This document shows positions 15,234-29,494 of a stretch of 64,000 nucleotides of DNA, piece by piece; position 1 is the stretch's first letter; every line of letters starts with the position of its first letter. Both the position numbers and the translations under genes were made by a program. Below the pieces are notes generated by a model. That model saw nothing but the letters and a program-made list of their open reading frames with translations, was not told the origin of the DNA and searched no databases. The DNA comes from an uncultured bacterium (GTDB lineage Bacteria; Patescibacteriota; Saccharimonadia; Saccharimonadales; Saccharimonadaceae), in assembly GCA_903832635.1 (NCBI GenBank), contig CAILCF010000005.1, positions 62,001 through 126,000 on the forward strand, given 5' to 3'.

Positions 15234-15434
15234 CTAAATATTTACCGAACGGGTTAAGTGCCAATAACCGCATAAATCGCATTTATATACTGAAAGTTCT
15301 AAACTCATTTTCTCTAGAGTCTGATTTTTTGCGGCATCCAGGGCATCCTTTTCATTTTTGTAACGTTTTTTATCACAAAGAAATTTCTCTGTTGGCAGAG
15401 AATGATGTTTAATGGTTTTATTTTTTCTTGGCAT
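15234..15434 (-). CDS. Small zinc-ribbon-like protein
   Basis: 66 basic residues ending in VYKCDLCGYWHLTRS. The CxxC followed by WHLT is a pattern I know from many short phage and Patescibacteria proteins. It could bind zinc with the upstream Cys/His (FLCDKKRY). It overlaps the end of the 15418-15828 gene by 17 bp, so the two are probably coupled. Function unknown. Confidence 0.65.
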   Translation of the reverse strand: MPRKNKTIKHHSLPTEKFLCDKKRYKNEKDALDAAKNQTLEKMSLELSVYKCDLCGYWHLTRSVNI

Positions 15435-15828
15435 AACGATTTGCTACTAACAACCACCCAATCACAATCCAAAATATTGCATACAAAGAAATAATTATGC
15501 CAACATTGAACGGAAAATCGTGTATAACAAAACTCTTTACTACGAAAACTAGCAAACTTATGCCAGAAAATATGGACACAGCACCTAATGCAAACTTTAC
15601 CGTATCCATTATTGTGTTCTTTGTAATCTTTCTTGGATAAAAAATATAGATAATGTATGCAGCAACAATAACCAAAAGAAACCAAGAACTTAAAAGCCAA
15701 ACATTAATAAAATTGAAGTGTATTACTGCTGCAACTATAATAATTGATAAAATTCTTAAAATATAATATGAATCTGAACGATTTTGTTTTCTTATACTAA
15801 CTAATTTAGATAATTTCATCTTCTCCAC
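15418..15828 (-). CDS. Four-helix membrane protein, paralog A
   Basis: 136 residues with four membrane helices and conserved stretches (FNFINVW, IFYPRK, KFALGAV, IFSGISLL, NVGIIISLYA) shared with the gene at 16843-17274. Family unknown. The start is GTG at 15828. TATAAT (15835-15840) ends six nucleotides before it, which predicts a leaderless transcript; an ATG three codons in has GGAG too close to it. Confidence 0.65.
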   Translation of the reverse strand: MEKMKLSKLVSIRKQNRSDSYYILRILSIIIVAAVIHFNFINVWLLSSWFLLVIVAAYIIYIFYPRKITKNTIMDTVKFALGAVSIFSGISLLVFVVKSFVIHDFPFNVGIIISLYAIFWIVIGWLLVANRYAKKK

Positions 15829-16842: not shown

Positions 16843-17274
16843 TCAAAATTTGTTAATAAATCGTGAATTTATCTTTGTGTATTGGGATTTTACGACTAAA
16901 TACCAACCAGCAATAACCCAAAATAGGGCATATAATGAAATAATAATCCCAACGTTTAATGGAAAATCATGCATAACTGTACTCTTAAAAACAAACATTA
17001 ATAAACTTATCCCAGAAAATATACAAACAACCCCTAGAGCAAACTTTACAATATCCAATATCTTATTTGTACCTTTACGAGGATAAAAAATAAATATGCC
17101 ATAAATTACTAGACAAACCAATAGAATTAATAAATTTAATGACCAAACATTAATAAAATTTAAATCTAATATTGCCAAAACAAGAATGATTGATGATATT
17201 CTGATAATTAAATAATTTTCAGGGATTGTCCGTATATTACGTTTGACGGATCGTTCTTTTTTTCGTCTCTCCAC
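16843..17274 (-). CDS. Four-helix membrane protein, paralog B
   Basis: 143 residues, clearly homologous along its whole length to 15418-15828 (LNFINVW, IFYPRKG, KFALGVVCIFSGISLL, HDFPLNVGIIISLYALFW). The start is GTG at 17274 with TATACT (17281-17286) six nucleotides before it. The two paralogs and the genes between them look like a local duplication block next to the cassette region. Function unknown. Confidence 0.65.
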   Translation of the reverse strand: MERRKKERSVKRNIRTIPENYLIIRISSIILVLAILDLNFINVWSLNLLILLVCLVIYGIFIFYPRKGTNKILDIVKFALGVVCIFSGISLLMFVFKSTVMHDFPLNVGIIISLYALFWVIAGWYLVVKSQYTKINSRFINKF

Positions 17275-17311
17275 CTGATAAGTATATCATGGGTTTAATA
17301 TGTTTAAGCTT

Positions 17312-17347
17312 ATAAGCCCCTAGCGGATTATTTTAGAACTTTTTATA
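17312..17347 (+). repeat. tRNA-Trp-3'-end-like repeat, copy 1 (leftmost)
   Basis: Degenerate copy of the repeat that recurs to 27.4 kb: AAGCCCCTAGCGGATT followed by ATTTTAGAACTTTTT. It contains the stop codon of the DUF1801 gene, so the repeat supplies the last residues of that protein. Confidence 0.6.
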
Positions 17348-17718
17348 ATATTGCGCCAACCGCCGAGGCGATTATTATCGGCAACTGAGATTAACAAGCA
17401 TCTCAAGGCAGATTTATTGATATCAGCATCTTTATAGATTTGAATTGAACGTGCTGTTAAATTATCTTTTCCCTGATTAATGATATTCTCAGGATCATCA
17501 GCAATCGGATCATAGATAAATAAGTTAATATGGTCCTTTGTAGCTTGCAGAGCACAGACGTTGCCCTTATAGGTAAAATACGGACGATTAGACCTTTTTA
17601 TAGTCTCATCAATTTCTGGGATAGCATCGTGAATGATCTTTCTTAACATTGTACACATCTCACCTTGCCACTTAGGAAGTTTTGAAATATATTCGTCAAT
17701 TCTAGGGTCTTTACTCAT
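17320..17718 (-). CDS. DUF1801 (YdhG-like) protein
   Basis: 132 residues. The N-terminal IDEYISKLPKWQGEM and LRKIIHDAIPEIDETIK, the central CALQATKDHINLFIYD, and the late RCLLISVADNN match the DUF1801 fold, whose function is unknown. The last seven codons lie inside repeat copy 1. A weak -10 lies six or seven nucleotides before the ATG. Confidence 0.75.
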   Translation of the reverse strand: MSKDPRIDEYISKLPKWQGEMCTMLRKIIHDAIPEIDETIKRSNRPYFTYKGNVCALQATKDHINLFIYDPIADDPENIINQGKDNLTARSIQIYKDADINKSALRCLLISVADNNRLGGWRNIIKSSKIIR

Positions 17719-17754
17719 AATTCATATAATAACAAAAAAGCCTCGATTTCTCAT

Positions 17755-17813
17755 ACTGCTTATGCGTGGCGGGGGTACATGGACGATTACCAAACCTATT
17801 GTTGTATAACTGG
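17755..17813 (+). repeat. tRNA-Trp-3'-end-like repeat, copy 2
   Basis: TGGCGGGGGTACATGGACGA (from 17767), preceded by CATACTGCTTATGCG. The left part matches the flank of the real tRNA-Trp gene (CATACTACTTATGCT); by eye about 30 of 36 positions agree across the CCA end, acceptor stem and downstream flank. The Doc gene ends immediately to its right. Confidence 0.7.
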
Positions 17814-18233
17814 TTATTTATAGTCAATTAGGTTCTTTTCAACAAAGTCTTTCACTAACCCATACATGCCATGTCTTAGTTTAGGTGAGCTACCAGCCAC
17901 AACAACAGCTATATCATACATTTCCTCGTTGCTGGCGGACAGCCATTTATCGTTAAGGGATAAAAAGACTAATAACGAAGTAACGGCAATTCGCTTATTT
18001 CCGTTTATAAAAGGGTGGTTTTTGATTAGTAAATAAAATAAGATAGCGGCTTTATCTATTAAAGTTGGATAAAGATCTCGTCTTCCGAAAGTTTGAAAAA
18101 CCGACGCAAGACAACTTTCTAACTTGCCTGGATAACGACTTCCAAATTCCGGTATTGGTTCATCCCAGCTCATTTGTTTTTGAGCTAAGGCATGCGCAAG
18201 TTTTTCAACTTCATCGATTGTTATATTTTTCAT
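17814..18233 (-). CDS. doc: Doc/Fic-family toxin
   Basis: 139 residues with the Fic core HPFINGNKRIAVTSLLVFL near residue 75. HxFxxGNKR is present, with Asn where AMPylating Fic enzymes usually have Asp or Glu. The short all-helical form and the antitoxin gene directly upstream indicate a death-on-curing toxin, whose known E. coli phage P1 member phosphorylates EF-Tu. Its ATG overlaps the antitoxin stop by one base. It ends at the edge of repeat copy 2. Confidence 0.82.
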   Translation of the reverse strand: MKNITIDEVEKLAHALAQKQMSWDEPIPEFGSRYPGKLESCLASVFQTFGRRDLYPTLIDKAAILFYLLIKNHPFINGNKRIAVTSLLVFLSLNDKWLSASNEEMYDIAVVVAGSSPKLRHGMYGLVKDFVEKNLIDYK

Positions 18234-18493
18234 TATTCTTTACCGAGTTTTTTAAGTACTGGGGAGTATTCATCAATAACCCTTTTTACGGCTTTATCCA
18301 CAGCTTTTTCCTCTGTTGGTGTAATCTTAGTAAAGATACCCCCTAATGAGTTTTTATCGACAGCATATGATCGACCTATACGCGAAGCCTTAATTGCCCC
18401 ACTATTAATTAGTCTGACAATATGGATTCTTGAGTAGCCTAGTATATCGGCTGCTTCTTTAACGCTTATTAGATTGTTGTTGTTGTTATGCAT
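18233..18493 (-). CDS. Helix-turn-helix antitoxin of the Doc pair
   Basis: 86 residues: an excisionase/MerR-like HTH (LISVKEAADILGYSRIHIVR, recognition part INSGAIKASRIGR), then a helical tail (KAVKRVIDEYSPVLKKLGKE) of the sort that neutralises Doc. The start is ATG at 18493 with CAGGT upstream. The promoter is overlapped by two near-identical palindromes (18515-18560), so autorepression is likely. Confidence 0.8.
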   Translation of the reverse strand: MHNNNNNLISVKEAADILGYSRIHIVRLINSGAIKASRIGRSYAVDKNSLGGIFTKITPTEEKAVDKAVKRVIDEYSPVLKKLGKE

Positions 18494-18514
18494 TTTGTTA
18501 CCTGATTTTAGTTG

Positions 18515-18560
18515 ATGTTACTATTGTAACATAAGACAATTTGATGTTACAATAGTTACA
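18515..18560 (-). promoter_or_regulatory. Promoter with twin operator palindromes for the toxin-antitoxin operon
   Basis: Two related palindromes: ATGTTACTATTGTAACAT (18515-18532, perfect arms) and TGTTACAATAGTTACA (18545-18560, one mismatch). Their centres are 29 bp apart, close to three helical turns. On the minus strand they contain TTGTAA and TACAAT 18 nt apart, a plausible -35/-10 pair, so a bound repressor would cover both boxes. Confidence 0.7.
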
Positions 18561-18617
18561 GCAATATAAAATTATTGCAAATGTTAATTTTTTGTAATAA
18601 ATATTACATTCGTCAAT

Positions 18618-18766
18618 AGGGGCACATGGAATAGAACTCTTTTTACAGAGTTAGTTTTGACAAAAAAAATTTAATTGAATTACAACCGAAATAATCGAAC
18701 CGATTTAACTCTGTTATTTTCAATCTGTTCTGCTTGGCAGCTCCTAGTGGGCGCACTTCGCAACTT
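18618..18766 (+). repeat. tRNA-Trp-like repeat copies 3 and 4 with conserved non-coding core
   Basis: The left end AGGGGCACATGGAATAGAAC matches the 3' end of tRNA-Trp at 18 of 20 positions, the best match in the array. The right end TGGCAGCTCCTAGTGG (18735-18750) is a degenerate copy. Between them lies a core with inverted arms CAGAGTTA and TAACTCTG, also found in altered form at 23748-23895. No gene is seen here. Confidence 0.65.
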
Positions 18767-18790
18767 AATGTTAATTAGCTGATTCCGGGG

Positions 18791-19240
18791 TTATATAATG
18801 AATAAATAGTGTATTTTTGGCGTTCTACAGAGACCACTTAAGCCCGGATTCATATTGCCTTCTATTAATTGATCGGCATTCTTGACATCATTCAGTGAGC
18901 CACCAAAAATTAAGTCATGCCGTACGGTTTCTATAGATACACCACTGCGCATGATACATCCTTTTGTCTGGAAAGATTCAATTGGAATATACATTGCAGC
19001 TAAAATTATTACTAGGACCGATATTAACCAAATAGTTATCTTTATTTGGCCACCATGTCTTTTTATTGATTTTATAAATTTCACACTATATATACCTAAT
19101 GCAGTAAGACCGATAATAATAGCCCATATTATGTAATTAATTGTGATTAAACCGAAATAATAAAATAAACAAAAAATAACTATAACTACAGAGACAATAA
19201 TAGCGATTAAATATGTGTTTTTAATCTGTTTTGGTTTCAT
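18791..19240 (-). CDS. Membrane protein, unknown function
   Basis: 149 residues: three membrane helices (about 10-30, 35-55, 68-88), then a 60-residue outside tail with two cysteines. No family recognised. TAGAAT (19247-19252) ends six nucleotides before the ATG (leaderless). It ends 24 bp to the right of repeat copy 4 and is the only gene of its cassette. Confidence 0.55.
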   Translation of the reverse strand: MKPKQIKNTYLIAIIVSVVIVIFCLFYYFGLITINYIIWAIIIGLTALGIYSVKFIKSIKRHGGQIKITIWLISVLVIILAAMYIPIESFQTKGCIMRSGVSIETVRHDLIFGGSLNDVKNADQLIEGNMNPGLSGLCRTPKIHYLFII

Positions 19241-19288
19241 AAATTAATTCTATCATATAAACTTAGAAATGCATGATAAGCATAAGCG

Positions 19289-19322
19289 TGGCAGCCCCTA
19301 GTGGATGATTTTAGAACTTTTG
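19289..19322 (+). repeat. tRNA-Trp-3'-end-like repeat, copy 5
   Basis: TGGCAGCCCCTAGTGGATGA then TTTTAGAACTTTTG, preceded by ATAAGCATAAGCG as in other copies. It separates two single-gene units. Confidence 0.65.
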
Positions 19323-19340
19323 TACTCGAATTTGAATATA

Positions 19341-19880
19341 CTAAAGTTTTCTAATACCTTCTTCGCATTTTTGCCCTAATCCTTTTAAATTAGCTGGTGC
19401 GGTAGCCAAAGCAATACCGGACGCAATTGCGCCTGAGATATGTGTAAGTTTTTCATTACCAGTAGTTGCACATATAGCAAAAGCCGCTGTTGCAAGATTG
19501 GTTGCTTTTTGATACCTTTGACCCTTAGTTGCCTCCCCCGTCTCAACTAAATGAAAAGCGTTCATACCTCCGACTGCGGCAGCTCTTGCAGTTAGAATGC
19601 TAACGTAGGGTCTTGCTGCGGGGTACTTTTTAATAACCTCTAGAACAACTCTACCCATAGAAATATGGTCAACGACTCCATCCGCGATTCTCCTGTTTGG
19701 AGTATCCAAGTCAAACTTTCTTAGTACTTCTCCATCCATAATGTCTGCAGCAATAAAGGCAGCCATATCTAAATATATTGGCTTCTCGTTTTTTACGTGT
19801 CGAGCCATAATCTCAGCTATCCCTAATCGAGCAGTCGTAATAGCAATGCCGACGGCCTCACCGCCTTTTATCTTAGTCAT
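19341..19880 (-). CDS. CDP-alcohol phosphatidyltransferase-like protein
   Basis: 179 residues. ADIMDGEVLRKFDLDTPNRR followed by IADGVVDHIS fits the CDP-alcohol phosphotransferase signature DxxDGxxAR...GxxxDxxxD, with Leu for Ala and Arg for Gly. A later TKGQRYQKATNLATAAFAI resembles the second conserved region. All four aspartates are present. The membrane helices are weak compared with true family members, so it may be a diverged or truncated form; lipid synthesis activity is not certain. TATCAT (19887-19892) ends six nucleotides before the ATG. Confidence 0.5.
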   Translation of the reverse strand: MTKIKGGEAVGIAITTARLGIAEIMARHVKNEKPIYLDMAAFIAADIMDGEVLRKFDLDTPNRRIADGVVDHISMGRVVLEVIKKYPAARPYVSILTARAAAVGGMNAFHLVETGEATKGQRYQKATNLATAAFAICATTGNEKLTHISGAIASGIALATAPANLKGLGQKCEEGIRKL

Positions 19881-19926
19881 TCATTTATGATAGTTTTAAA
19901 TACACATCAAGAGCAAGCATAAACAA

Positions 19927-19949
19927 AAAGACTCAGAAACTGAGTCTTT
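19927..19949 (-). terminator. Terminator hairpin beside repeat copy 6
   Basis: AAAGACTCAG pairs with CTGAGTCTTT (10 bp, 3-nt loop) with Ts following on the minus strand. It insulates the 19341-19880 gene from leftward transcription crossing the repeat, like the hairpin just past tRNA-Trp. Confidence 0.7.
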
Positions 19950-19964
19950 GCTTAAATATAAGTG

Positions 19965-20024
19965 TGGCAGGGGCTTGTGGACGATTACAGAACTTTTTGT
20001 GGTATAACTAGTTTTTCTAAGGAG
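19965..20024 (+). repeat. tRNA-Trp-like repeat, copy 6, carrying a promoter
   Basis: TGGCAGGGGCTTGTGGACGA, then ATTACAGAACTTTTTGTGG, TATAACTAG and AAGGAG. The extended -10 (TGG-TATAAC, about 20000) and the ribosome site for the PLD-like gene lie inside the repeated unit. Copy 7 at 21174 is nearly the same. Confidence 0.75.
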
Positions 20025-20031
20025 AAGGGTG

Positions 20032-20502
20032 ATGTTAACAAAGAGGAGTAGACGTTCTCGTGAATTAACGTCGTTAAAACTATATGACCAAAATGGGTTT
20101 TATAAGGCTTTTATTAAGGATTTAAACAAAGCTAAGAGTAGAGTTATCATCGAAAGTCCGTTTTTAACGAAAAAGCGCGTCACTTCCCTGCTCCCAACAC
20201 TAGAAAAAATGGTAAATGGAAACATTAAAGTCATAGTCAATACCAAACCACTTGATGAACATAGTTCAGAATTATACGATCAGGCTTTTTGGTCTATAGC
20301 CAAGCTTCAATGTATCGGCGTTCTAGTGTTATTTACTACCGGTCATCATAGAAAATTAGCGATTATAGACAATGAAATATTGTGGGAAGGAAGTCTTAAT
20401 ATTTTATCTCAAAACAAAAGCTGCGAATTGATGCGCCGTACACAATCTAGGAACTTAGTCAAACAGATGCTTCGGTTTACTGGCCTTATGAAATGGTGTT
20501 AA
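20032..20502 (+). CDS. PLD-like protein A, single HKD motif
   Basis: 156 residues. HHRKLAIIDNEILWEGSLN carries the HxKx4D...GSxN motif of the phospholipase D/nuclease superfamily. One motif per chain means it would act as a dimer, as in Nuc-type nucleases. The N-terminus VIIESPFLTKKRVTSLLP also fits PLDc_2 domains. ATG at 20032 has GGAG seven nucleotides upstream; an adjacent GTG at 20029 is less likely. A close paralog lies at 21241. The substrate (nucleic acid or lipid) is unknown. Confidence 0.75.
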   Translation: MLTKRSRRSRELTSLKLYDQNGFYKAFIKDLNKAKSRVIIESPFLTKKRVTSLLPTLEKMVNGNIKVIVNTKPLDEHSSELYDQAFWSIAKLQCIGVLVLFTTGHHRKLAIIDNEILWEGSLNILSQNKSCELMRRTQSRNLVKQMLRFTGLMKWC

Positions 20503-20593
20503 AGATAAAACAAAACAACACGTAATGCTGAAGTTATTTGAAGTGTTACAGTAAAGTTTTCGTTCGAGTATATATATTTCTTAAATTGTTTGC

Positions 20594-21136
20594 TTAAACA
20601 ATACCGTAACGTATAAGTGCCTCACCTAAAACATCTAGTCCGCTATAGCCTCTTATATCGGCATAAGCTACAGGTCGTAAGGCTTTATCGATTATATTGG
20701 GGACTTTATGGTCCGTCTCACCAATACTAACGTATTTTCCTTCAGCCTCTGTCCCTTCCAGCCGTTGGACTTTTGACTCCCAATTGAGGCTTAAGGATCG
20801 AAGGTCTTCGAGTAGCACAATCCCATCACTTCCAAAGGAAGAATCACGGCGATCTTCGTAATCTTTGAGTACCCAGCCTCTACCAATCAGGTGCTTCTCG
20901 TAACTTCCTCTACTATAACGGCGATCGATAGGGGGTATATAACTGGTATAGATAACATCAACTTGAGGTATTTCGTGATCGCGCATTATTTCTATAAACT
21001 GCGAAGCTCGTTCATCAGATTGCTTTTTTAGAATATCCAATTCGGCTTGTCTTTGTCTTTCTTCCTCTTGTTTTTTTGATTCAACTTCATTTCTAATAGA
21101 CTTTAAAGTGTTTGCGTGACCCAATAAATCTTCCAT
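20594..21136 (-). CDS. Coiled-coil hypothetical protein
   Basis: 180 residues: an N-terminal coiled coil (about 10-55, rich in Glu/Lys/Gln) and an unrecognised C-terminal domain. The frame opens at 21157, but TTGACA (21166-21171) with an AATTAT box six nucleotides before the ATG at 21136 makes the shorter start likelier. The -35 lies against repeat copy 7. It is opposite in direction to the PLD-like gene that shares its cassette. Confidence 0.55.
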   Translation of the reverse strand: MEDLLGHANTLKSIRNEVESKKQEEERQRQAELDILKKQSDERASQFIEIMRDHEIPQVDVIYTSYIPPIDRRYSRGSYEKHLIGRGWVLKDYEDRRDSSFGSDGIVLLEDLRSLSLNWESKVQRLEGTEAEGKYVSIGETDHKVPNIIDKALRPVAYADIRGYSGLDVLGEALIRYGIV

Positions 21137-21173
21137 AGGTATATAATTACATATCATAGTTAATTTGTCAATC

Positions 21174-21233
21174 TGGCAGGGGCTCAGGGACGATTACAGA
21201 ACTTTTTGTGGTATAACTAGCTTTTCTAAGGAG
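21174..21233 (+). repeat. tRNA-Trp-like repeat, copy 7, carrying a promoter
   Basis: TGGCAGGGGCTCAGGGACGA with the same promoter and ribosome-site extension as copy 6, in front of the second PLD-like gene. Confidence 0.75.
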
Positions 21234-21240
21234 AAGAGAG

Positions 21241-21711
21241 ATGTTGCTAAAGAGGAATAAGCACTCTAGTGATCTAGTAACATCTAAACTATATGACCAG
21301 GATGGGTTCTATAAGGCTTTTACTAAAGATTTGAATAAGTCTAGGAGTAGAGTTATCATCGAAAGCCCATTTCTAACAAGAAAACGGGTCACTTCCCTGC
21401 TTCCAACGGTAGAGAAACTGATAAATAATAACGTTAAAGTCATAGTTAATACCAAACCACTTGATGAACAGAGCCCGGAACTATACAACCAAGCTTATTG
21501 GTCTATTGCTAAGCTACAAAGTATGGGTGTACTAGTTCTCTTTACAGCCGGACACCACAGGAAATTGGCAACAATAGATGATGGAATACTATGGGAAGGC
21601 AGTCTTAATATCCTATCTCAAAATGATAGCTACGAAATCATGAGACGGATTGTATCGATTAATGTGGTGGAAGAAATGTTACGATTTACCACTATTAAGA
21701 AATGGTGTTGA
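21241..21711 (+). CDS. PLD-like protein B, single HKD motif
   Basis: 156 residues, roughly 70 percent identical by eye to the protein at 20032, with HHRKLATIDDGILWEGSLN intact. The repeat in front is duplicated with it, so repeat plus gene behaved as one unit. Divergence is spread over the length, so the duplication is not very recent. GGAG lies six nucleotides before the ATG. Confidence 0.75.
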   Translation: MLLKRNKHSSDLVTSKLYDQDGFYKAFTKDLNKSRSRVIIESPFLTRKRVTSLLPTVEKLINNNVKVIVNTKPLDEQSPELYNQAYWSIAKLQSMGVLVLFTAGHHRKLATIDDGILWEGSLNILSQNDSYEIMRRIVSINVVEEMLRFTTIKKWC

Positions 21712-21810
21712 AATGAGATAAACCACATCCGGACTTAACTATTGCGCTTTAATAAGTGCATGATATATAGTTACTCTAGTATTACCGAAAGACAAACAGA
21801 GGGAAATATA

Positions 21811-22956
21811 TTGAAACCATTTTCTGCCCTAAAATTCTTTAAAGAGAACAAACGAAAAGGCTTAATGACCTTTATCGTATTAATTTTGTCAATTTGCGCC
21901 ATTTCACTAATAACCGTCATGATTAATTCAATTCACGAGTCTTTTGATGTGTATACGCAACCTCTCACCAAATATTCGCTTGTTGCGGGCTCCACGAGCG
22001 ATTTATATTTGAACCAATCGGTTGTAGATAAGTTAAAATCTGATACTGATATTGAACGGCTAATCCCCTGTGACACCGACGGGATTAACACCAACTTCTC
22101 AATTGGCGGTAGTGCAGTAGTCGGTACATTTGCAAACGTTTCCAACTTAAAATATTTACTAGGCAAGTTTAATGACGTGGTCAAAGAGGGACGCTTGCCT
22201 AAAAATAATACAGACGAAATCGCCGTGCACCAACGGATAATGTTAAATAAAAATTGGAAGCTCGAACAAATTGTTGGCAATAAAGTTGACTCTAAGGAAT
22301 TTTTGTCGGGTTCGTATAAAATTGTCGGAGTGTTGGACGGTCCTGCTATTACCTTCGTCGGTACTCAATCAAACCGCGAAAAGCAGTACATAAAAAACGG
22401 ACTAGATATAACAAAACCTATAGAATACGCGGTATTTGCAAAACCCGGTAAATTTGATGCGGTGAATAAAACACTTGAATCTATAAATGTAAATGATGCC
22501 ACTGTTTCCGACTTTAATACTATTATTACGCAGAGTAACGACAGTTTCGCGTCCATAAATACTACTTTAATAGGAGTAATTTTGGCTGTAACGATCATAT
22601 TATCGATATCAATCAGCTCGCTAATGTATCTAATATACCTGCAGCGTTCAGACGAATTCGGCATTCTTTTAGCTATGGGATACCGTAAGAGTTTTATTTA
22701 TCGTCTGATTCTTAAAGAAATCCTTTTTCTAAACATCATAAGTTGGGCAATCGGATTTTTGCTGGCATATCTGCTCATATACCTATTAAACTACTTCGTT
22801 TATAACCCGCAAGGCAGCGTTCTTAACTTCTTTAGCGTGAATGTTTTTGAAAATACACTATGCATACCGATAGTCGCAACTATATTTAGCATATTACCAA
22901 TCCTTTCAAAAATGCGAAAGCAAGATCCAATCACTATTATCGAGAGGCGCGACTAA
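21811..22956 (+). CDS. MacB/FtsX-like ABC transporter permease
   Basis: 381 residues: one N-terminal membrane helix, a long outside domain (about 45-260), then three C-terminal helices with the FtsX core (YLIYLQRSDEFGILLAMGYRK), the type VII ABC layout used by MacB and LolCE. The frame is open from 21742, but GAGGG sits seven nucleotides before TTG at 21811, which gives MKPFSALKFF, the usual family start. It is coupled to the ATPase 1 bp downstream. Likely mechanotransmission or peptide/lipoprotein export. Confidence 0.8.
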   Translation: MKPFSALKFFKENKRKGLMTFIVLILSICAISLITVMINSIHESFDVYTQPLTKYSLVAGSTSDLYLNQSVVDKLKSDTDIERLIPCDTDGINTNFSIGGSAVVGTFANVSNLKYLLGKFNDVVKEGRLPKNNTDEIAVHQRIMLNKNWKLEQIVGNKVDSKEFLSGSYKIVGVLDGPAITFVGTQSNREKQYIKNGLDITKPIEYAVFAKPGKFDAVNKTLESINVNDATVSDFNTIITQSNDSFASINTTLIGVILAVTIILSISISSLMYLIYLQRSDEFGILLAMGYRKSFIYRLILKEILFLNIISWAIGFLLAYLLIYLLNYFVYNPQGSVLNFFSVNVFENTLCIPIVATIFSILPILSKMRKQDPITIIERRD

Positions 22957-22957
22957 A

Positions 22958-23653
22958 ATGATTGAATGTAAAAATCTTACACTCAGCTATAAAGACGGCA
23001 ATAGAGAGAATCTCGTCTTAGATAATGTTGACATGCAGATAAATAATAACGAGACAATTGTATTGCTTGGACCATCCGGCAGTGGCAAAAGTTCATTAAT
23101 CTATCTTTTGTCCGGCTTGAAGAATCCTACGTTCGGGCAAATCATGTATGACGGGGTGGATATTGAAAAGTATAATTCAAAACAATTTTCAGATCTGCGT
23201 CGTAAAAAATTTGGTTACATATTCCAACAGCATTTTTTGGTACCATATTTAAAAGTTATCGAAAACGTGCTTGTCGGAGCGCCAAAGATGAGCAATACAT
23301 ACCGAGTTAAAGCGCAACAGCTACTTCATGAACTTGGCATCGATCAATACATGAATAAGAGAATTTTTGAACTTTCGGGTGGTGAACGTCAACGAGTAGC
23401 AATCGCGAGGGCGCTCATATCAGAACCGGACATTATTTTTGCTGATGAGCCTACTGCATCCCTCGACCACAACACGGCCGTAGAAATTTTAAAGTTGATT
23501 AAAAAATATAAAGAATCAACCACACTAATAATCGCTACACACGATACATCAATACTTGACGGCAATGAGTCGATCGTGAGGATCGAACACGGCAAGGTTA
23601 TAAGAGATAATAATGCCGAAAGTCTAAGCACCTTAAAAAACCAGACGAGTTAG
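22958..23653 (+). CDS. MacB/LolD-like ABC ATPase
   Basis: 231 residues with Walker A GPSGSGKSS, Q-loop YIFQQHFLVPY, signature ELSGGERQRVAIARA, Walker B IIFADEPTASLD and H-loop ATHDTS. It partners the permease at 21811-22956. A second, distinct pair of the same class lies at 27451-29339. Confidence 0.9.
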   Translation: MIECKNLTLSYKDGNRENLVLDNVDMQINNNETIVLLGPSGSGKSSLIYLLSGLKNPTFGQIMYDGVDIEKYNSKQFSDLRRKKFGYIFQQHFLVPYLKVIENVLVGAPKMSNTYRVKAQQLLHELGIDQYMNKRIFELSGGERQRVAIARALISEPDIIFADEPTASLDHNTAVEILKLIKKYKESTTLIIATHDTSILDGNESIVRIEHGKVIRDNNAESLSTLKNQTS

Positions 23654-23747
23654 ACTCTTTCAAAGTCCTTCACAACAAAACAAAAATTATTACTTTGCTC
23701 AAACATTCTTATTATCAGTCGTGCAAGTATATTCACAATCAGTCAAG

Positions 23748-23920
23748 AGGGGTACCGGGACAGCCGAACTTATTTAACAGAGAAGGTTTGACAAAATTAA
23801 AACAGATTAGTTCGTATTCGAAATAGTAGAACCAATTCTAATCTATTATTTTCATATTGTCCTGTTTGGCAGGGGCTCGTGGACGACTACAGAACCTATT
23901 GTGGTATAACTAGTTTTTCT
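23748..23920 (+). repeat. tRNA-Trp-like repeat copies 8 and 9 with conserved non-coding core
   Basis: Left end AGGGGTACCGGGACAGCCGA (23748), right end TGGCAGGGGCTCGTGGACGA (23867) followed by CTACAGAACC and TATAACTAG. The intervening core is related to 18640-18734 (shared GTTTGACAAAA and TATTTTCAT...CTGT-TGGCAG, inverted arms AGATTAG and CTAATCT). The copy-9 promoter now points at no rightward gene. Confidence 0.65.
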
Positions 23921-23950
23921 AAAATGATAGAAAATGGTAAATACTAAGCA

Positions 23951-24199
23951 CTAGACATGGACTTTATCAAGATCAATGCCGGCTTTATCCGCCAGTACTT
24001 GAATATATTTCTCTAACCGACTAATTTTGTGATCCATTGCAGCCATTTCTTGGGCGTAGGTGTCAATCTTATTGGCGTAACCGTCAATGATATCCGTCAA
24101 TAAATCGAAACGCTTATCGACTATCAAAAATTTGCCATCGACATCTTGGCGAAACTCTTTCATGTATTTGAATAATTTCGTAAATTGATCTTCACTCAT
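23951..24199 (-). CDS. Small coiled-coil protein
   Basis: 82 residues, almost all helical, with heptad-like spacing (FTKLFKYMKEFRQDVDGKF; MDHKISRLEKYIQVL). It resembles short coiled-coil proteins that are common in Saccharibacteria; function unknown. TATAAT (24206-24211) ends exactly six nucleotides before the ATG. It ends 31 bp to the right of repeat copy 9 and is a one-gene cassette. Confidence 0.6.
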   Translation of the reverse strand: MSEDQFTKLFKYMKEFRQDVDGKFLIVDKRFDLLTDIIDGYANKIDTYAQEMAAMDHKISRLEKYIQVLADKAGIDLDKVHV

Positions 24200-24242
24200 A
24201 CAAATATTATAGCATTAATGACTAAACATAATTAGGGATTTA

Positions 24243-24280
24243 TTGGCAGGGCATCCTAGACGAAGTTAGAACTTTATTGA
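24243..24280 (+). repeat. tRNA-Trp-like repeat, copy 10 (left of 38-bp perfect pair)
   Basis: TTGGCAGGGCATCCTAGACG continuing for 38 bp to 24280; all 38 bases recur at 27383-27420. It is a diverged subtype of the array repeat and bounds the NUDIX-RiPP-phosphorylase block. Confidence 0.85.
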
Positions 24281-24299
24281 TTGTAAGTATCACTAATTG

Positions 24300-24791
24300 C
24301 TAATTAAAGAATTGTCTGCAGCTTGCAATCAATCGATCGCCAACTTTGCCATAATTTATTAAATTGTTTACATCATTTATGCCAACAAGTTTGTGTCCAA
24401 CAACACTTCCGCCTGGATCGTTAGTGAACTCACCAATCTTTTCTAATTTTGCGTATACTCTGAATTGATACGCCACGTCTTTATCGCCTGGCCTCGATAA
24501 TCTTTGGTAGCCAAGTGGTAACCATGAAACAATCTTCATATTTAGTTCTTCTTGTATTTCACGATGCATTGCGTCCTCGAGCGACTCACCTTGCTCGACA
24601 TGACCACCCGGAAGGTTGTTTTCTTTATCATGGTATTTTACTAATGGAACTCGATTTTCAAAGTTCCCTATTACATAAATTTGTTCCCACTGGAGGTCCG
24701 GGATTTCAGATTTATTTTGAACATCATACCATTTAACAGATATTACGTCTCCTTCATAAATAAATTCATCAATCAAATCTGGTTTTGTCAT
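24300..24791 (-). CDS. NUDIX hydrolase A
   Basis: 163 residues with an intact Nudix box: GGHVEQGESLEDAMHREIQE continuing ELNM (GX5EX7REUXEEXGU, with Asn in place of the last Gly). An N-terminal beta sheet and a C-terminal basic tail flank it. It hydrolyses a nucleoside diphosphate linked to an unknown group. TATACT (24798-24803) ends six nucleotides before the ATG (leaderless). Confidence 0.85.
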   Translation of the reverse strand: MTKPDLIDEFIYEGDVISVKWYDVQNKSEIPDLQWEQIYVIGNFENRVPLVKYHDKENNLPGGHVEQGESLEDAMHREIQEELNMKIVSWLPLGYQRLSRPGDKDVAYQFRVYAKLEKIGEFTNDPGGSVVGHKLVGINDVNNLINYGKVGDRLIASCRQFFN

Positions 24792-24843
24792 TAGTTCAGT
24801 ATAACAAAAATGTACGTTCTCTGATTTTTTTGCATTAAAATAT

Positions 24844-24865
24844 CCCGTTACCTCACCGTAACGGG
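24844..24865. terminator. Hairpin between NUDIX and the peptide gene
   Basis: CCCGTTAC pairs with GTAACGGG (8 bp, 6-nt loop). T-rich sequence follows on the minus strand, so it is probably a terminator for the radical-SAM/peptide transcript. Confidence 0.6.
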
Positions 24866-24902
24866 AAGTATTGACTCTTCGATATTACTGGATCATGAGA
24901 TT

Positions 24903-24939
24903 GGCGGCACCCGTCCGCATTGCGCAAACGGGTGCCGCC
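24903..24939 (-). terminator. Strong GC hairpin after the precursor peptide gene
   Basis: GGCGGCACCCGT pairs with ACGGGTGCCGCC (12 bp, 13-nt loop), 15 bp past the peptide stop. It lacks an immediate T-run, so it may protect the mRNA end or act with the second hairpin at 24844. Confidence 0.6.
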
Positions 24940-24953
24940 TCACTCTTCTGGAC

Positions 24954-25115
24954 CTACGCCACGTGGGACTGCTCGCTGAAAGCGGAACCACAGCAGGCGT
25001 TGCCGCCCATGACGATGGCCTTGGTGATCGACTCCCCGGTCGGGAGCGTCTCCTGCCGACTGACGGATGCGCCGATTACGTCATGGGCGCTCGTCATTGT
25101 CTGAAGCACTGTCAT
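24954..25115 (-). CDS. Putative RiPP precursor peptide (53 aa)
   Basis: The ORF starts at ATG 25115, six nucleotides after GAGGGGAGG, an excellent ribosome site, and lies 21 bp downstream of the radical-SAM gene. It encodes MTVLQTMTSAHDVIGASVSR as a hydrophilic leader start and ends in AIVMGGNACCGSAFSEQSHV plus Ala. The GG before NACCG resembles a double-glycine leader cleavage site. The Cys-Cys pair and Ser/Phe residues are candidate crosslink positions. The arrangement (SPASM enzyme then short Cys-containing peptide, then strong hairpins) is typical of ribosomally made, post-translationally modified peptides. The class (sactipeptide, ranthipeptide or other) is not determined. Confidence 0.7.
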   Translation of the reverse strand: MTVLQTMTSAHDVIGASVSRQETLPTGESITKAIVMGGNACCGSAFSEQSHVA

Positions 25116-25136
25116 TCTTGTCACCTCCCCTCAGGG

Positions 25137-26468
25137 CTATGTCGCTGATGGACTAGCGCCAGAAGACTTCGCCTTCTGGTACTTTTGAAGAACATATCCT
25201 GGAATGTCATGAACGACATCAGAACATGTTTTTCTGCCGATGTATCTTGCCATGCGGCATCCGCCCTTACAAAGTGGGAGGATCTTGCACCGCAGGCATT
25301 CGTCGTCGTTGAAGGGGTCGGCAGTCACGAACCTGGCGTACCTGGAGACTTCTGCCTGGGACAGGAAGCCGTCTTTGACGTTGCCGACGGACTCCTCCTT
25401 TCCCATGTTGTGCGAACACATGAACAGGTCACCCTCCTGATTGATCAGGAAAGCGTTATCAAAGTCGCACTCGCAGAAGTTGTATGTCGGGCCCTCGTCG
25501 AACGAGTTGGTGGTGAAACCGGTGCTCTCGGCCAGCTGGTAAAGCGGCGCGAGGTTAGTAAAGGGCGACTGTCCCTTCAACCTCTGGGAGAACTCTTGGC
25601 CCGGACTTCTGCCGTCAGGGTGGGAGTTTACCCACCTAAACAGCAGAATGCACTTCCTTTTCACGCTGGTCGGGACTTTCTCGAGCAAGGCCGGAATGCT
25701 GTCGTAGTTGTTGTCGGTCACGTTGACGCGCAAAATGGACGCCACGTCAGATTGACTGCCTTCGCAGTATCTGGCCATGTTGCCCAAAATCGTGTCAAAC
25801 GTACCGGCGTGCGAACCCTTGACGAACCGGTAACTGTCGTGGATAGCTCTGTCGCCATCGAGCGTTACCTGGACGCTCTTGATATGAAGCGCTTCGGTTT
25901 GCTCGGCGAATTGCTCATCCAGTAGTACACCGTTCGTCACGAGACTTGCGGTGTACTCGAATCCATATTGCCCTTCCAGGCGCAGGATGCCTTCAGTTAA
26001 CCGTGCGATCGTTCCCTTTGACAGCAGCGGCTCCCCACCGAACCACTGCAAGTACAGGGTCTTCGCGCCGACCAACTGCCGTTCCAGCCACGTCAAGTAG
26101 CTGTTCTCGGTCTCTCGACTCATGAACATGCCCGTCTTGCTTTCGAAGCAATACGGGCAGTCCAAGTTGCACGAGAGGTTCGGTAGAACGGTGTGCCGGT
26201 GTATTCCCGACGAGTACAGACTTCGGCTCCAACCGAGCCTGAAGTAAGCCAGCTCGTCCATGTTGTCCTCGACCACAAACATCTGGTCAGAAAGGGACTG
26301 GAGCAAGCTTGACTCCGTTTGGCTCGTGGGATGGAAACCGTTGTTCGACAGGTTCGTGAAAACCGTGTACTCATCAGCTGACATTTCAGCGATGTTCTTG
26401 TACATGGTGTTGTAGAACACTTTGCCGACTGGACCGTCGACGATGATAGTGTAGAATGAAAGCTTCAT
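25137..26468 (-). CDS. Radical SAM/SPASM peptide-modifying enzyme
   Basis: 443 residues. The N-terminal 95 residues look like the peptide-engagement (RRE-like) region of such maturases. The radical SAM motif is CNLDCPYC (CxxxCxxC), followed by LQWFGGEPLLS. The SPASM end has Cys ligands in CECDFDNAF, FMCSHNMG and ECLRCKILPLCKGGCRMAR for extra Fe-S clusters. ATG at 26468 has CGGAGG eight nucleotides upstream; the frame open to 26519 is not used. The gene is much richer in G and C than its neighbours and has different codon use, a sign of acquisition. It probably crosslinks the peptide encoded at 24954-25115. Confidence 0.88.
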   Translation of the reverse strand: MKLSFYTIIVDGPVGKVFYNTMYKNIAEMSADEYTVFTNLSNNGFHPTSQTESSLLQSLSDQMFVVEDNMDELAYFRLGWSRSLYSSGIHRHTVLPNLSCNLDCPYCFESKTGMFMSRETENSYLTWLERQLVGAKTLYLQWFGGEPLLSKGTIARLTEGILRLEGQYGFEYTASLVTNGVLLDEQFAEQTEALHIKSVQVTLDGDRAIHDSYRFVKGSHAGTFDTILGNMARYCEGSQSDVASILRVNVTDNNYDSIPALLEKVPTSVKRKCILLFRWVNSHPDGRSPGQEFSQRLKGQSPFTNLAPLYQLAESTGFTTNSFDEGPTYNFCECDFDNAFLINQEGDLFMCSHNMGKEESVGNVKDGFLSQAEVSRYARFVTADPFNDDECLRCKILPLCKGGCRMARYIGRKTCSDVVHDIPGYVLQKYQKAKSSGASPSAT

Positions 26469-26502
26469 CTTACAGACCTCCGAAATATCGAAAGATGTCA
26501 AT

Positions 26503-26570
26503 GGACAGCAGATAGACACCTCTGTCCAACTACCTGTTATATATTTAACACATAACTATGACATATGTCA
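26503..26570. promoter_or_regulatory. Divergent control region of the radical-SAM and phosphorylase genes
   Basis: It contains a perfect 12-bp palindrome TGACATATGTCA (26559-26570), a possible operator. Leftward TTGACA overlaps it, and rightward TACAAT lies just after it. A hairpin GGACAG...CTGTCC (26503-26527) falls in the leader of the radical-SAM mRNA. Confidence 0.45.
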
Positions 26571-26611
26571 ATTTATGTTACAATTAGCGTTGAATAAACT
26601 GGAGAAAAGAG

Positions 26612-27346
26612 ATGATAACATTCGATTCTGATAAAAACGCCATATTCAATCCGCAAAGTCTTAATTTAGTAGGCAATCCTAAAAAAGCCCTAATGATTTT
26701 TGACGATGAGGTCTGGGAAGATTATGTTGAAAAAAACAAAGCACTAGAGACTTTTCCGGCAAAGAATAACAGCGGTAGAGTCTTTAGCACCTTTCGCATG
26801 TATAAACATGATGACGAAAATATTTTGTTAATCTGCCCAAACGTCGGTGGGGCGGCTTCTGTTGTAGACTTAGAGTTACTAATTGCCAGTGGTATTAAAA
26901 AAATTGTTGCCTTCGGAACATGTGGTGCAATGGATAAAAATGTTGGTAAAAACACCATCATCATCCCGTCAAGCGCAATTCGAGAAGATGGCGTCAGCTA
27001 CCACTATCTACCACCTAGCGACGAAGTTGATCAGAAAAAGACATCAATTAAAGTCATGGAAAAAGTCTTTTCGCGACATAACATGAATTATCAGACGGGA
27101 AATGTTTGGACGACCGATGCGGTATATAGAGAAACATCAAATAAACTGAAAACCATGAAACAAAATGGCTGTCTGGCTGTTGATATGGAAATGGCATCAC
27201 TGATGTCTGTGGCTAAATTTAGGTCTATTGATTTTGCTGGTTTTTTAATTGCTGACGATAATATCGACGGAAAGCCTAAAATTGAATACAAAAGAGACTC
27301 TGCTAAGCTACTTCAGCTAGCCTTAGAAATAGTAACAACCATTTAA
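26612..27346 (+). CDS. Nucleoside phosphorylase family protein
   Basis: 244 residues of the PNP/UDP phosphorylase fold (PF01048). GTCGAMD and REDGVSYHY are the phosphate and base pocket regions, and LAVDMEMASLMSVA holds the MEM ribose-binding motif. It cleaves a nucleoside with phosphate; base specificity is unclear. GGAG lies seven nucleotides before the ATG. It is divergent from the radical-SAM gene and is the last gene before the right 38-bp repeat. Confidence 0.85.
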   Translation: MITFDSDKNAIFNPQSLNLVGNPKKALMIFDDEVWEDYVEKNKALETFPAKNNSGRVFSTFRMYKHDDENILLICPNVGGAASVVDLELLIASGIKKIVAFGTCGAMDKNVGKNTIIIPSSAIREDGVSYHYLPPSDEVDQKKTSIKVMEKVFSRHNMNYQTGNVWTTDAVYRETSNKLKTMKQNGCLAVDMEMASLMSVAKFRSIDFAGFLIADDNIDGKPKIEYKRDSAKLLQLALEIVTTI

Positions 27347-27382
27347 TTATTAACTACTCTTTTATGGTTTATAAGCATAAAC

Positions 27383-27420
27383 TTGGCAGGGCATCCTAGA
27401 CGAAGTTAGAACTTTATTGA
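27383..27420 (+). repeat. tRNA-Trp-like repeat, copy 11 (right of 38-bp perfect pair)
   Basis: Identical over 38 bp to 24243-24280 and in the same orientation. Upstream TTATAAGCATAAAC matches flanks of other copies. The ABC permease gene ends 31 bp to its right. Confidence 0.85.
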
Positions 27421-27450
27421 AGATAGCCGTATGAATACCGGAAACTTTGT

Positions 27451-28668
27451 CTATAGTCCCCAGATTGCGTCCAGAATCTTAATTCTGACGGACTGGAATG
27501 CTGGTACAAGTGATGAAAGTAGTGTAACTGCTGATAGGATTAATGCATTCTGAATCATTGAGCCTTGGTTGATGTATAGAGTTACGTAACCGTAAGGGAA
27601 TTTGAATGGATGCTGCACAACAATTGGGGCTAGAACGTACAGAAATACGAGTGCGCCAATACTGATACCTATCATTGCAAAAAATGCAGATTTTAGTAGA
27701 TAGTTGCCGATAATTGCCTTTGACTGTATACCTATCGCGCGCTCTATACCGATCTGTTTCCTTTTATTAATCAAATCAACGTATGTGACTATAAAGACGG
27801 TTATAGCGGCTACTATAAGTGAAATGATCTTTAGTATTTGATTTATTAGATCGAATGTCTTTAATTGATCTCTTACAGGTCCTGCTAGATCATCTGATGT
27901 TTGATATTTTATTCCGGGTTGTTTCGACACTAGGTTATCACCTAGACTTGTATTACTCTCAGTGTTTTTAGATTTTACATATACCGAAGTCGAGTGATTT
28001 TTCGTTATTGGTAGCAATAAATTGGCATCCTTTTGAGATATATAGGCCTTTTGGTCAGATTGAAGGAAGTTATTATTGAAAATCCCTTTCACTTTAAAGT
28101 CATGTGTCTTGCCATTTATCAAACTGACCGTTACCGTATCACCAGCGTGTACGTTTTTCAATGAAATAGCATATCCTTGCATGTTTGTCTGTCCTGCTCC
28201 CGCAATTTCCACTCCCAATACAATCGAATCCGTATCGTTTTTATCTAAGAACGAACCTTCAATTATGTTACTAGGGGTTGTGAATACTTTTCCAAATGAG
28301 TCAGGCTCGATAGCATCTACTGACCAAACATTTGATATGTTGCCCTTACTGATCTGAGTACCAACCCTTAGGGTAGGAGTAGCATCGACAACTGAAGTGT
28401 TTGATCGTATATTTGTTAATAATTCGTCTGTATTTGTAATATTTGAGCCGCTATTAGAGGAAGACAGGATAACATTGCTAGTTAGAGTTTCAATTAGCTG
28501 CAAGCTTACCTTATGGCTTAGGCCTTCAATTAATGATGGTAAAAATAATAAATTAATATAGATCAAGGCCAGCATACCAATAGTAAGTACGGTTATGCCT
28601 TTGTTGCCGCGCCACAAAGAGCGTATTGCCAAGAATATTGAAACCCTTGCAGAACGTAAATATTTCAT
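27451..28668 (-). CDS. FtsX-like ABC transporter permease
   Basis: 405 residues: N-terminal helix, a 210-residue outside domain, and three C-terminal helices with the FtsX signature (VDLINKRKQIGIERAIGIQS). Same class as 21811-22956 but only distantly similar in sequence. It overlaps the ATPase gene by 4 bp (ATGA-type coupling). It lies between the array and tRNA-Trp, so it may itself be the first cassette. Confidence 0.85.
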   Translation of the reverse strand: MKYLRSARVSIFLAIRSLWRGNKGITVLTIGMLALIYINLLFLPSLIEGLSHKVSLQLIETLTSNVILSSSNSGSNITNTDELLTNIRSNTSVVDATPTLRVGTQISKGNISNVWSVDAIEPDSFGKVFTTPSNIIEGSFLDKNDTDSIVLGVEIAGAGQTNMQGYAISLKNVHAGDTVTVSLINGKTHDFKVKGIFNNNFLQSDQKAYISQKDANLLLPITKNHSTSVYVKSKNTESNTSLGDNLVSKQPGIKYQTSDDLAGPVRDQLKTFDLINQILKIISLIVAAITVFIVTYVDLINKRKQIGIERAIGIQSKAIIGNYLLKSAFFAMIGISIGALVFLYVLAPIVVQHPFKFPYGYVTLYINQGSMIQNALILSAVTLLSSLVPAFQSVRIKILDAIWGL

Positions 28669-29339
28669 ACGTATTCCTCTGTAATTCTTCCATCCTTTAG
28701 AAATATTAGTTGTGTTGCATATTTTTTATCGTCAGGATCATGAGACACAAAGATTATTGTTACACCAGTTTTTTTGTTCAGGTTTTTTAGCGTGTCCATT
28801 ACTGTCTTTGCGGATATGCTATCTAGATTTGCAGTCGGTTCGTCTGCAAAAATAACTTTTGGATTGTTTATCATGGCTCTTGCTATTGCAACACGTTGTT
28901 GTTGTCCACCTGATAGTTCTTTGGGTAAATGGTTAATCTCATTTCCAAGACCAACAGTTTCAAGTAAATTCTTAGCTAGCTTTTTATACTTTTTACTTTT
29001 GACACCAGACATCATGGCGGGGAGATATACGTTTTCAATTGCAGTTAACTCAGGTATAAGAGCATATTCCTGGAACACGTAGCCTAATGTGTTTAAACGA
29101 AGTATTGATCTCTTACCTTCCGGCAAATCAATAACGTCCTTTGCGTCGATTATAATACTACCGCTATTTGGCCTATCTATCAGGCTAAGTTGACGTAGTA
29201 ATGTTGTCTTTCCAGACCCGCTCTTGCCCATCAAACCAACCATCATGCCCTTTTCGATGTCAAAAGAAACATCTGAAAGAGCGGGTACTTCTACTTTACC
29301 CATTTTATAAATCTTGCTTAAATTGTTGACTGTAATCAT
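28665..29339 (-). CDS. LolD/MacB-type ABC ATPase
   Basis: 224 residues with Walker A GKSGSGKTT, Q-loop YVFQEYALIPE, signature LSGGQQQRVAIARA, Walker B VIFADEPTANLD and H-loop SHDPDD. Forms a pair with the FtsX-like permease. AGG lies eight nucleotides before the ATG; a TATATA box at about 29370 would give a short leader. Confidence 0.9.
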   Translation of the reverse strand: MITVNNLSKIYKMGKVEVPALSDVSFDIEKGMMVGLMGKSGSGKTTLLRQLSLIDRPNSGSIIIDAKDVIDLPEGKRSILRLNTLGYVFQEYALIPELTAIENVYLPAMMSGVKSKKYKKLAKNLLETVGLGNEINHLPKELSGGQQQRVAIARAMINNPKVIFADEPTANLDSISAKTVMDTLKNLNKKTGVTIIFVSHDPDDKKYATQLIFLKDGRITEEYV

Positions 29340-29378
29340 TTCGGCCTATTCTTTTAGCTGTTTATATAATCATAACAA

Positions 29379-29404
29379 AATAAACTCCATATAGGGAGTT
29401 TATT
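29379..29404 (-). terminator. Terminator of tRNA-Trp
   Basis: AATAAACTCC (29379-29388) pairs with GGAGTTTATT (29395-29404), and a T-rich tract follows on the minus strand. Confidence 0.8.
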
Positions 29405-29419
29405 CATACTACTTATGCT

Positions 29420-29494
29420 TGGCAGGGGCACGTGGAATCGAACCACGATCTTAGGTTTTGGAGACCCATATACTGACCGTTGTACTATGCCCCT
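29420..29494 (-). tRNA. trnW: tRNA-Trp (CCA anticodon)
   Basis: Cloverleaf: acceptor AGGGGCA/TGCCCCT, D stem GTAC/GTAT, anticodon stem TGGGT/ACCTA with loop CTCCAAA (anticodon CCA), T arm GTGGTTCGATTCCAC, and an encoded CCA end. Promoter TTTAAA (29529-29534) and TACAAT (29506-29511), spacer 17. Its 3' end is the apparent parent of the repeats at 17.3-27.4 kb, all of which lie on its 3' side. Confidence 0.95.

Follow-up and report, generated by a model that had tools for sequence, protein, structure and literature searches.

A 64,000-nucleotide stretch of contig CAILCF010000005.1 (the window), part of the 793-kb, 94%-complete genome of an uncultured Saccharimonadaceae bacterium, carries a tRNA-Trp gene followed on its 3' side by a tandem array of small gene cassettes, set apart by short repeats whose core recalls the last bases of the tRNA gene (Table 1). 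The array had been noticed in an initial annotation that listed about eleven repeats in the same orientation beside an intact tRNA-Trp at 29420. A profile constructed from the sites recovered nine of the eleven, every one on the + strand, with E values of 6e-3 to 3e-10; the remaining two are present as decayed copies without a core. The tRNA was confirmed at 29420-29494 on the minus strand, and the copy at 18618 does match its 3' end at 18 of 20 bases. Three consensus matches were found in the window against none in 100 shuffles. Near copies of the site within the window's own genome are confined to the array region, so the repeats are not intergenic elements scattered over the genome without relation to tRNA-Trp, the outcome that the initial annotation had named as contrary to its reading.

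Sequence logos revealed a sharp 33-bp site composed of the 6-bp core TGGCAG and a 27-bp arm, CCCCTMGTGGACGANCTTCGAACTTTT, which is the opposite strand of the AAAAGTTCGAANTCGTCCACKAGGGG-like arm seen in the direction of the tRNA. ACGA at positions 17-20 and GAAC at 26-29 are preserved in two further arm classes, GGGGCTCGTGGACGATTACCGAAC and GGGCATCCTAGACGAAGTTAGAAC, and the GGGG arm class is accompanied by a divergent PLD-like gene. Across 15 array loci, site orientation was identical in all 122 sites, the adjacent open reading frame (ORF) terminated at the site in 92 of 116 cases, the median distance from stop codon to core was 39 nt and the median site spacing was 688 bp. Most cassettes carry one gene per site. 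In the direction of the tRNA, the elements follow one another as tRNA, terminator-like hairpin, gene, site, hairpin, gene, site, and the array lies on the 3' side of the tRNA here and in every examined case with an anchor on the contig. The cargo genes of the window read leftward in 11 cases and rightward in 5, and the gene-then-site order that had been claimed for them extends well beyond the window.

Arms are more similar within arrays (0.787) than between them (0.714), a difference reached in none of 500 permutations. Folding of 78 sites gave mean z values of +0.8 and +0.5, with none below -2 and no covariation at candidate pairs, and Rfam detected only the tRNA at the window array, with no family matching the sites; the sites are thus neither attC sites nor known RNA elements. 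The opposite end of the cassette bears a loose GCTTATGC motif in only about one third of sites, and the two cassette ends are not inverted repeats of each other. Cassette starts, on the left flank of most array sites, often carry GCTTATGC or its inverse GCATAAGC directly beside the core. In the window, the two decayed copies match the T-arm side of the tRNA but no longer have the TGGCAG core. An intact copy is found about 120 bp from each of them, and the two pairs so formed have flanks in common.

Table 1. Anchor, sites and cassettes of the array in the window, listed from the tRNA outward (HTH, helix-turn-helix; RiPP, ribosomally synthesized and post-translationally modified peptide)
Feature	Coordinates	Strand	Evidence or remark
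tRNA-Trp, array anchor	29420..29494	-	ARAGORN; Rfam tRNA
CCA-end hexamer of tRNA-Trp, TGGCAG	29420-29425	+	
Cassette 1, adjoining tRNA: ABC transporter permease (MacB/FtsX) and ATPase	27451..29339	-	Pfam; 93% identity to G024
Site, GGGCATCC-class arm	27384..27416	+	profile search
Cassette 2: NUDIX (-), RiPP precursor and radical SAM/SPASM maturase (-), phosphorylase (+)	24300..27346	mixed	domain searches; high-GC insert
Site, GGGCATCC-class arm	24244..24276	+	profile search
Cassette gene, 82-aa coiled-coil-like protein	23951..24199	-	
Site, GGGG-class arm (TGGCAGGGGCTCGTGGACGACTACAGAACC)	23867..23899	+	consensus match; profile
Decayed site, core gone	23744..23770	+	read from sequence; missed by profile
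Cassette opposing array direction: PLD-like gene, FtsX-like permease, ABC ATPase	21241..23653	+	domain searches
Site, GGGG class, immediately upstream of PLD-like gene	21174..21206	+	consensus match; profile
Cassette gene, 187 aa, without family match	20594..21157	-	
Second PLD-like gene copy, beside own GGGG-class site	20029..20502	+	82% DNA repeat
Site, GGGG class	19965..19997	+	consensus match; profile
Cassette gene, CDP-alcohol phosphatidyltransferase-like	19341..19880	-	weak match, E 1.7e-6
Site, CCCC class, best canonical copy in window	19289..19321	+	profile E 3e-10
Cassette gene, 149-aa membrane protein	18791..19240	-	
Site, CCCC class variant	18735..18767	+	profile search
Decayed site, tRNA-spaced, core gone	18614..18640	+	read from sequence; missed by profile
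Cassette: Fic/Doc toxin-like gene and HTH/excisionase-like gene (antitoxin position)	17814..18493	-	domain searches
Site, GGGG class	17767..17799	+	profile search
Cassette gene, DUF1801; 3' end overlapping site at 17311	17320..17718	-	
Most distal site, CCCC class, core worn to TATAAG	17311..17343	+	profile search

Distribution of the arrays and their cores

The same site, in arrays of up to 15 cassettes, was found in about 20 other Saccharibacteria genomes, and a search of relatives with one repeat copy gave matches in several genera, at loci carrying same-site arrays. A pattern for the commonest class, TGGCAGCCCCTMGTGGACGANNTTNGAACTTTT, occurred in 19 of the 393 genomes of the class, and a version open at the three bases after TGG occurred in 22; neither pattern matched when reversed. 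Among 84,980 species genomes, all matches to the exact pattern were Saccharibacteria records (one titled only 'bacterium UBA6025'), and none of the 2.9 million viral contigs in IMG/VR contained it, which indicates no viral carriers there. The largest arrays, with 13-15 sites, are those of G018, G204 and G015. The array in the window probably belongs to a family of gene-cassette arrays that are anchored at tRNA genes in Saccharibacteria.

With the three bases free, the same 27-bp arm was also found behind tRNA-Gln and tRNA-Asn genes, and the core followed the tRNA. It is TGGCAG at the Trp anchor. At a tRNA-Gln whose 3' end reads TGGCTA in reverse complement, the cores are TGGCTA or the variants TGGTTA and CGGCTA; at another tRNA-Gln (TGGCTG) the proximal core is worn to TGGTTA and a distal one is TGGCTG; and at tRNA-Asn (TGGCTC) the cores are TGGCTC. 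At least one core was identical to the terminal hexamer of the facing tRNA at 20 of 23 loci. When the tRNA labels were shuffled, such loci averaged 12.3 and numbered at most 19 in 20,000 trials, never 20, a count that is not a strict probability because the 23 loci are not all independent by descent. The rule also holds within single genomes: a Trp and an Asn array coexist in G250, and two Gln arrays with different hexamers in G143, each array with its own core. Moreover, Trp, Gln and Asn arrays all contain members of one family of small-membrane-protein cassettes, which have the local cores and arms in each array; the core neighbouring the copy in the Asn array is decayed. The initial view that the sites derive from tRNA-Trp therefore holds for the 6-bp core and fails for the arm, which is a separate, conserved sequence common to Trp, Gln and Asn loci.

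The tRNA-Trp 3' end is also present as copies (TTGGCAGGGGC[AT]CGTGGAATCGAACT) that lie apart from any tRNA gene, at L028 16081, L136 8325 and L149 6044, where their core side is abutted by cassettes or by the gene of a large serine recombinase (LSR). A Kiwa KwaB-like gene neighbours such a copy in both G018 and G022. A copy of the tRNA end may by itself serve as a dock. A conserved 180-190-bp element (GGGGCACGTGGAATATCTAAAGATAGC...) with a tRNA-Trp-like end was found at L032 7282, L033 11930, L034 7896 and L128 9946; it lies beside tRNA-Trp in three genomes and within the array in G014.

Cassette exchange and a candidate enzyme

G018 and G022, which represent two species, share a 363-bp stretch comprising one cassette at 98.3% identity; the neighbours on either side are unrelated, and the similarity ends at the sites. 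The ABC cassette that adjoins tRNA-Trp in the window genome (G000) recurs in G024 at 93% identity, but there a cassette site and more cassettes take the place of the tRNA. Comparison of loci for single-cassette differences, as the initial annotation had proposed, hence revealed shared cassettes in new contexts between genomes, with the change at the sites. Shared flanks run up to TGGCAG and then diverge into GGGG (the tRNA), CCCC, GGAGAT or GGGCATCC; the flank of the G009 tRNA-Trp is also found before a GGAGAT arm in G017, and that of the G018 tRNA-Trp before CCCC arms elsewhere in G018. The acceptor stem of the tRNA (GGGG) is never overwritten. Because loci with one flank in common part at TGGCAG, the exchange point is placed at the tRNA-identical core, and the genome comparisons show cassettes to have been exchanged singly between genomes, with the breakpoint interval at that core. 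An overlap in the middle of the site, in the form of an 11-7-11 tyrosine recombinase core (TTGGCAGCCCC-TMGTGGA-CGAGCTTCGAA), was rejected because the breakpoints lie to the left of it, at TGGCAG.

The explanation that we favour, and judge likely, is an integron-like gene-cassette system that docks at tRNA 3' ends and exchanges cassettes across a 6-bp core by means of an enzyme supplied in trans. In the tRNA direction, a cassette consists of a terminator, usually a single gene, and a recombination site whose 27-bp arm ends in a 6-bp core equal to the terminal hexamer of the anchor tRNA gene, counting CCA. Gain, loss and reordering of cassettes would proceed through exchange across this core, with docking either at the 3' end of the tRNA or at sites already present, so that the tRNA is left intact; the comparisons support this with cassettes in different contexts, breakpoints at the core and a core that tracks the tRNA. 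A tyrosine recombinase requiring identity over a 6-bp overlap would fit the role of the enzyme. We infer active excision and insertion, a circular intermediate and a benefit conferred by the cargo.

The proposal of cassette shuffling by a recombinase encoded elsewhere, made in the initial annotation, was borne out in part, as regards single-cassette exchange, a junction at the site and the lack of a recombinase gene in the window array. The search for a tyrosine recombinase in the window genome yielded a single Xer-like gene, on another contig and beside a gene read as ndk, and a dedicated integrase was not seen. The product of the Xer-like gene scores as XerD/XerC/XerA and reaches 144 bits with TIGR02249 (integron integrase), far below the 265-bit cut-off. 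Neither a PF00589 gene nor IntI was found in the window array, and the array cargo scanned contained no tyrosine recombinase. Xer is the sole PF00589 protein in the array genomes G010, G014, G034, G141, G142, G152, G342 and G285 (92-99% complete) and the only recombinase found in every array genome tested, and its catalytic R, K, H, R, H and Y residues are invariant in 36 sequences. Tyrosine recombinases commonly use tRNA 3' ends as attachment (att) sites, and Xer-type exchange requires a 6-bp identity core, the 6-bp central region of dif. Elimination, together with the 6-bp identity core, thus makes Xer the first candidate. The elimination took in Cas1, Y1 HUH transposases, serine recombinases and IntI; on this footing the chromosomal Xer is put forward as the enzyme tentatively, at somewhat less than even chance.

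Other candidates were rejected. The Y1 HUH transposase (IS200/IS605-type) is patchy, being present in 6 of 16 array genomes and absent from the array-rich G204 and G162, and an MscS-like ORF upstream of tRNA-Trp (F10) is a mechanosensitive channel. The PLD-like gene with its GGGG-class site has the same divergent layout as intI and attI, but was present in only five of the genomes examined and is therefore regarded as cargo.

Several observations weigh against the integron-like explanation or against Xer as its enzyme. Three of the 23 loci have no exact core match (L224 reads TGGATT, and L226 and L227 are slightly off), a few sites carry a foreign core, such as the TGGCAG inside the Gln array of L219, and some arrays are located apart from any tRNA gene. 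Mobility is known from genome comparison, and no excised circle was seen. Xer is no discriminator, since almost all Saccharibacteria tested have it, whether arrays are present or not. The 27-bp arm is missing from the tRNA target, an unusual situation for the site of a tyrosine recombinase, and attempts to locate dif from a generic pattern, from skew in G162 and from shared k-mers gave no candidate for comparison.

Competing explanations

Target-site duplication survives best among the alternatives, though we consider it unlikely. A transposase- or integrase-like enzyme would insert a linear cassette at the 3' end of the tRNA, duplicate 6 bp of the target with every insertion and so leave the core as a scar, with growth resembling that of CRISPR arrays or casposons. 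The tRNA's own hexamer at both junctions and a core that tracks the tRNA agree with this, as do an arm resembling an element end and the greater likeness of arms within an array. The cassette ends are not those of such an element, however, as they are not inverted repeats and the far end has only the loose motif described above. Cas1, and with it a casposase, was rejected on its occurrence in 0 of 16 array genomes while the controls were positive, and the precise exchange of single cassettes within arrays fits recombination better.

Somewhat less likely still is the movement of cassettes by the LSRs of passing integrative elements. LSR genes do run into tRNA 3' ends, those of tRNA-Trp in G017, G026 and G204 and also those of Gln, Asn, Glu, Gly, Leu and other tRNAs, and elements with a serine recombinase and HUH Rep lie between anchor tRNA and array in G204 and G143 (L119 4110-6513 at Trp; L219 11469-14203 at Gln). 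Serine recombinases, however, exchange at 2 bp, not 6, and they vary across genomes; G010, which is 99% complete, has an array and no PF00239 protein, and the single LSRs of G000 and G018 are at tRNA-Glu and tRNA-Asn rather than tRNA-Trp. In contrast to the cassette arm, their att sequences have about 26 bp in common with the tRNA. As a separate observation in this clade, the LSR genes at L137, L138, L119, L139, L140, L142, L143, L146-L148, L150 and L151 extend at their 3' ends into a tRNA gene (Trp, Asn, Gly, Glu, Pro, Leu or Gln), so that after integration the tRNA encodes the C-terminus of the enzyme.

Tandem accretion, in which many islands integrated independently at tRNA 3' ends and the array is a passive graveyard of attL and attR scars, appears improbable. 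Direct repeats of the tRNA 3' end generally flank integrated elements, and several copies in the window are decayed. The 27-bp arm, on the other hand, is not of tRNA origin, and its presence at three tRNA specificities argues against reading the array as worn att scars of tRNA-Trp; single-gene units, fixed gene-to-site spacing, the lack of an integrase and near-identical cassettes in differing contexts also speak against accretion. Dispersal of the site with genes as an RNA or regulatory element (3' untranslated region or tRNA-like processing signal) would suit its constant position between stop codon and terminator-like sequence on one strand, but has very little to commend it given the absence of a conserved fold or a matching Rfam family, and leaves cassette exchange and the identity of core and anchor tRNA unexplained.

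Known systems, cargo and neighbouring features

Integrons are the textbook and nearly unique case of single-gene capture into ordered arrays, and the arrays described here resemble integrons, superintegrons and clusters of attC sites lacking integron integrases (CALIN) in their mostly single-gene, promiscuous cassettes, gene-then-site order, single orientation, anchorage at one end, sites more alike within an array and recombination point at the site edge. By genome comparison, the cassettes are also singly mobile. In contrast to integrons, the arrays have no IntI gene and are anchored at a tRNA 3' end rather than attI, and their sites lack R and L boxes, do not fold and have a crossover core that varies with the tRNA. 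As the cassettes start with terminators, they are not read from a common Pc promoter as in integrons. Identity with integron attC was rejected for want of fold or covariation in the 78 sites, and with CALIN (at least two attC sites without an integrase) because the clustered sites are not attC. The behaviour is integron-like without the defining parts of an integron.

With tRNA-anchored islands, cis-mobilizable elements and their tandem accretion, and tycheposons, the arrays share the dock at a tRNA 3' end, repeated attachment sites and tandem growth, but their units are single genes of 0.5-1 kb without an integrase, only 6 bp are tRNA-derived and one arm serves several tRNAs. A tycheposon carries its own tyrosine recombinase; none was found in the array cargo scanned, the single Xer lying elsewhere. 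The putative likeness to integrative mobile elements exploiting Xer (IMEX), which use host XerCD at dif, lies in a 6-bp exchange core and a host recombinase acting in trans, and the differences in a tRNA target instead of dif and the absence of recognised dif-like arms. Casposons and CRISPR arrays likewise grow in a polar manner, at the leader or tRNA end, with a repeat between units, but here Cas1 was absent from all 16 array genomes, the units are genes and the repeat is only partly target-derived.

No description of such arrays was found in the literature searched, in agreement with the initial annotation; preprints were outside its coverage and earlier priority is possible. Saccharibacteria have genomes of 0.7-1.2 Mb and live on other bacteria, and their routes of gene gain are poorly known. 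We lean slightly towards regarding the arrays as a second kind of integron-like capture, in which the core is rewritten to match the tRNA by Xer or another enzyme and exchangeable gene libraries are held at several tRNA loci. If so, they would represent an independent solution, with the architecture of an integron but a different site and anchor and no dedicated integrase. The rule that the core tracks the tRNA offers a direct test of the mechanism and a means of finding cassettes and arrays by sequence.

Array cargo includes toxin-like (Doc), Kiwa KwaB-like, NUDIX, deaminase, ABC and RiPP genes, types that suggest the arrays may be defence or competition libraries. Within a single cassette, positions 24750-26520 of the window form a high-GC island (about 55% against 37%), and this RiPP cluster is probably cargo of recent acquisition. 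A small peptide ORF on the minus strand (about 24957-25115), with the sequence ...VMGGNACCGSAFSEQSHVA, lies directly downstream of the radical SAM/SPASM maturase gene. Just past the distal end of the array are two related small membrane-protein genes, at 15418-15828 and 16843-17274.

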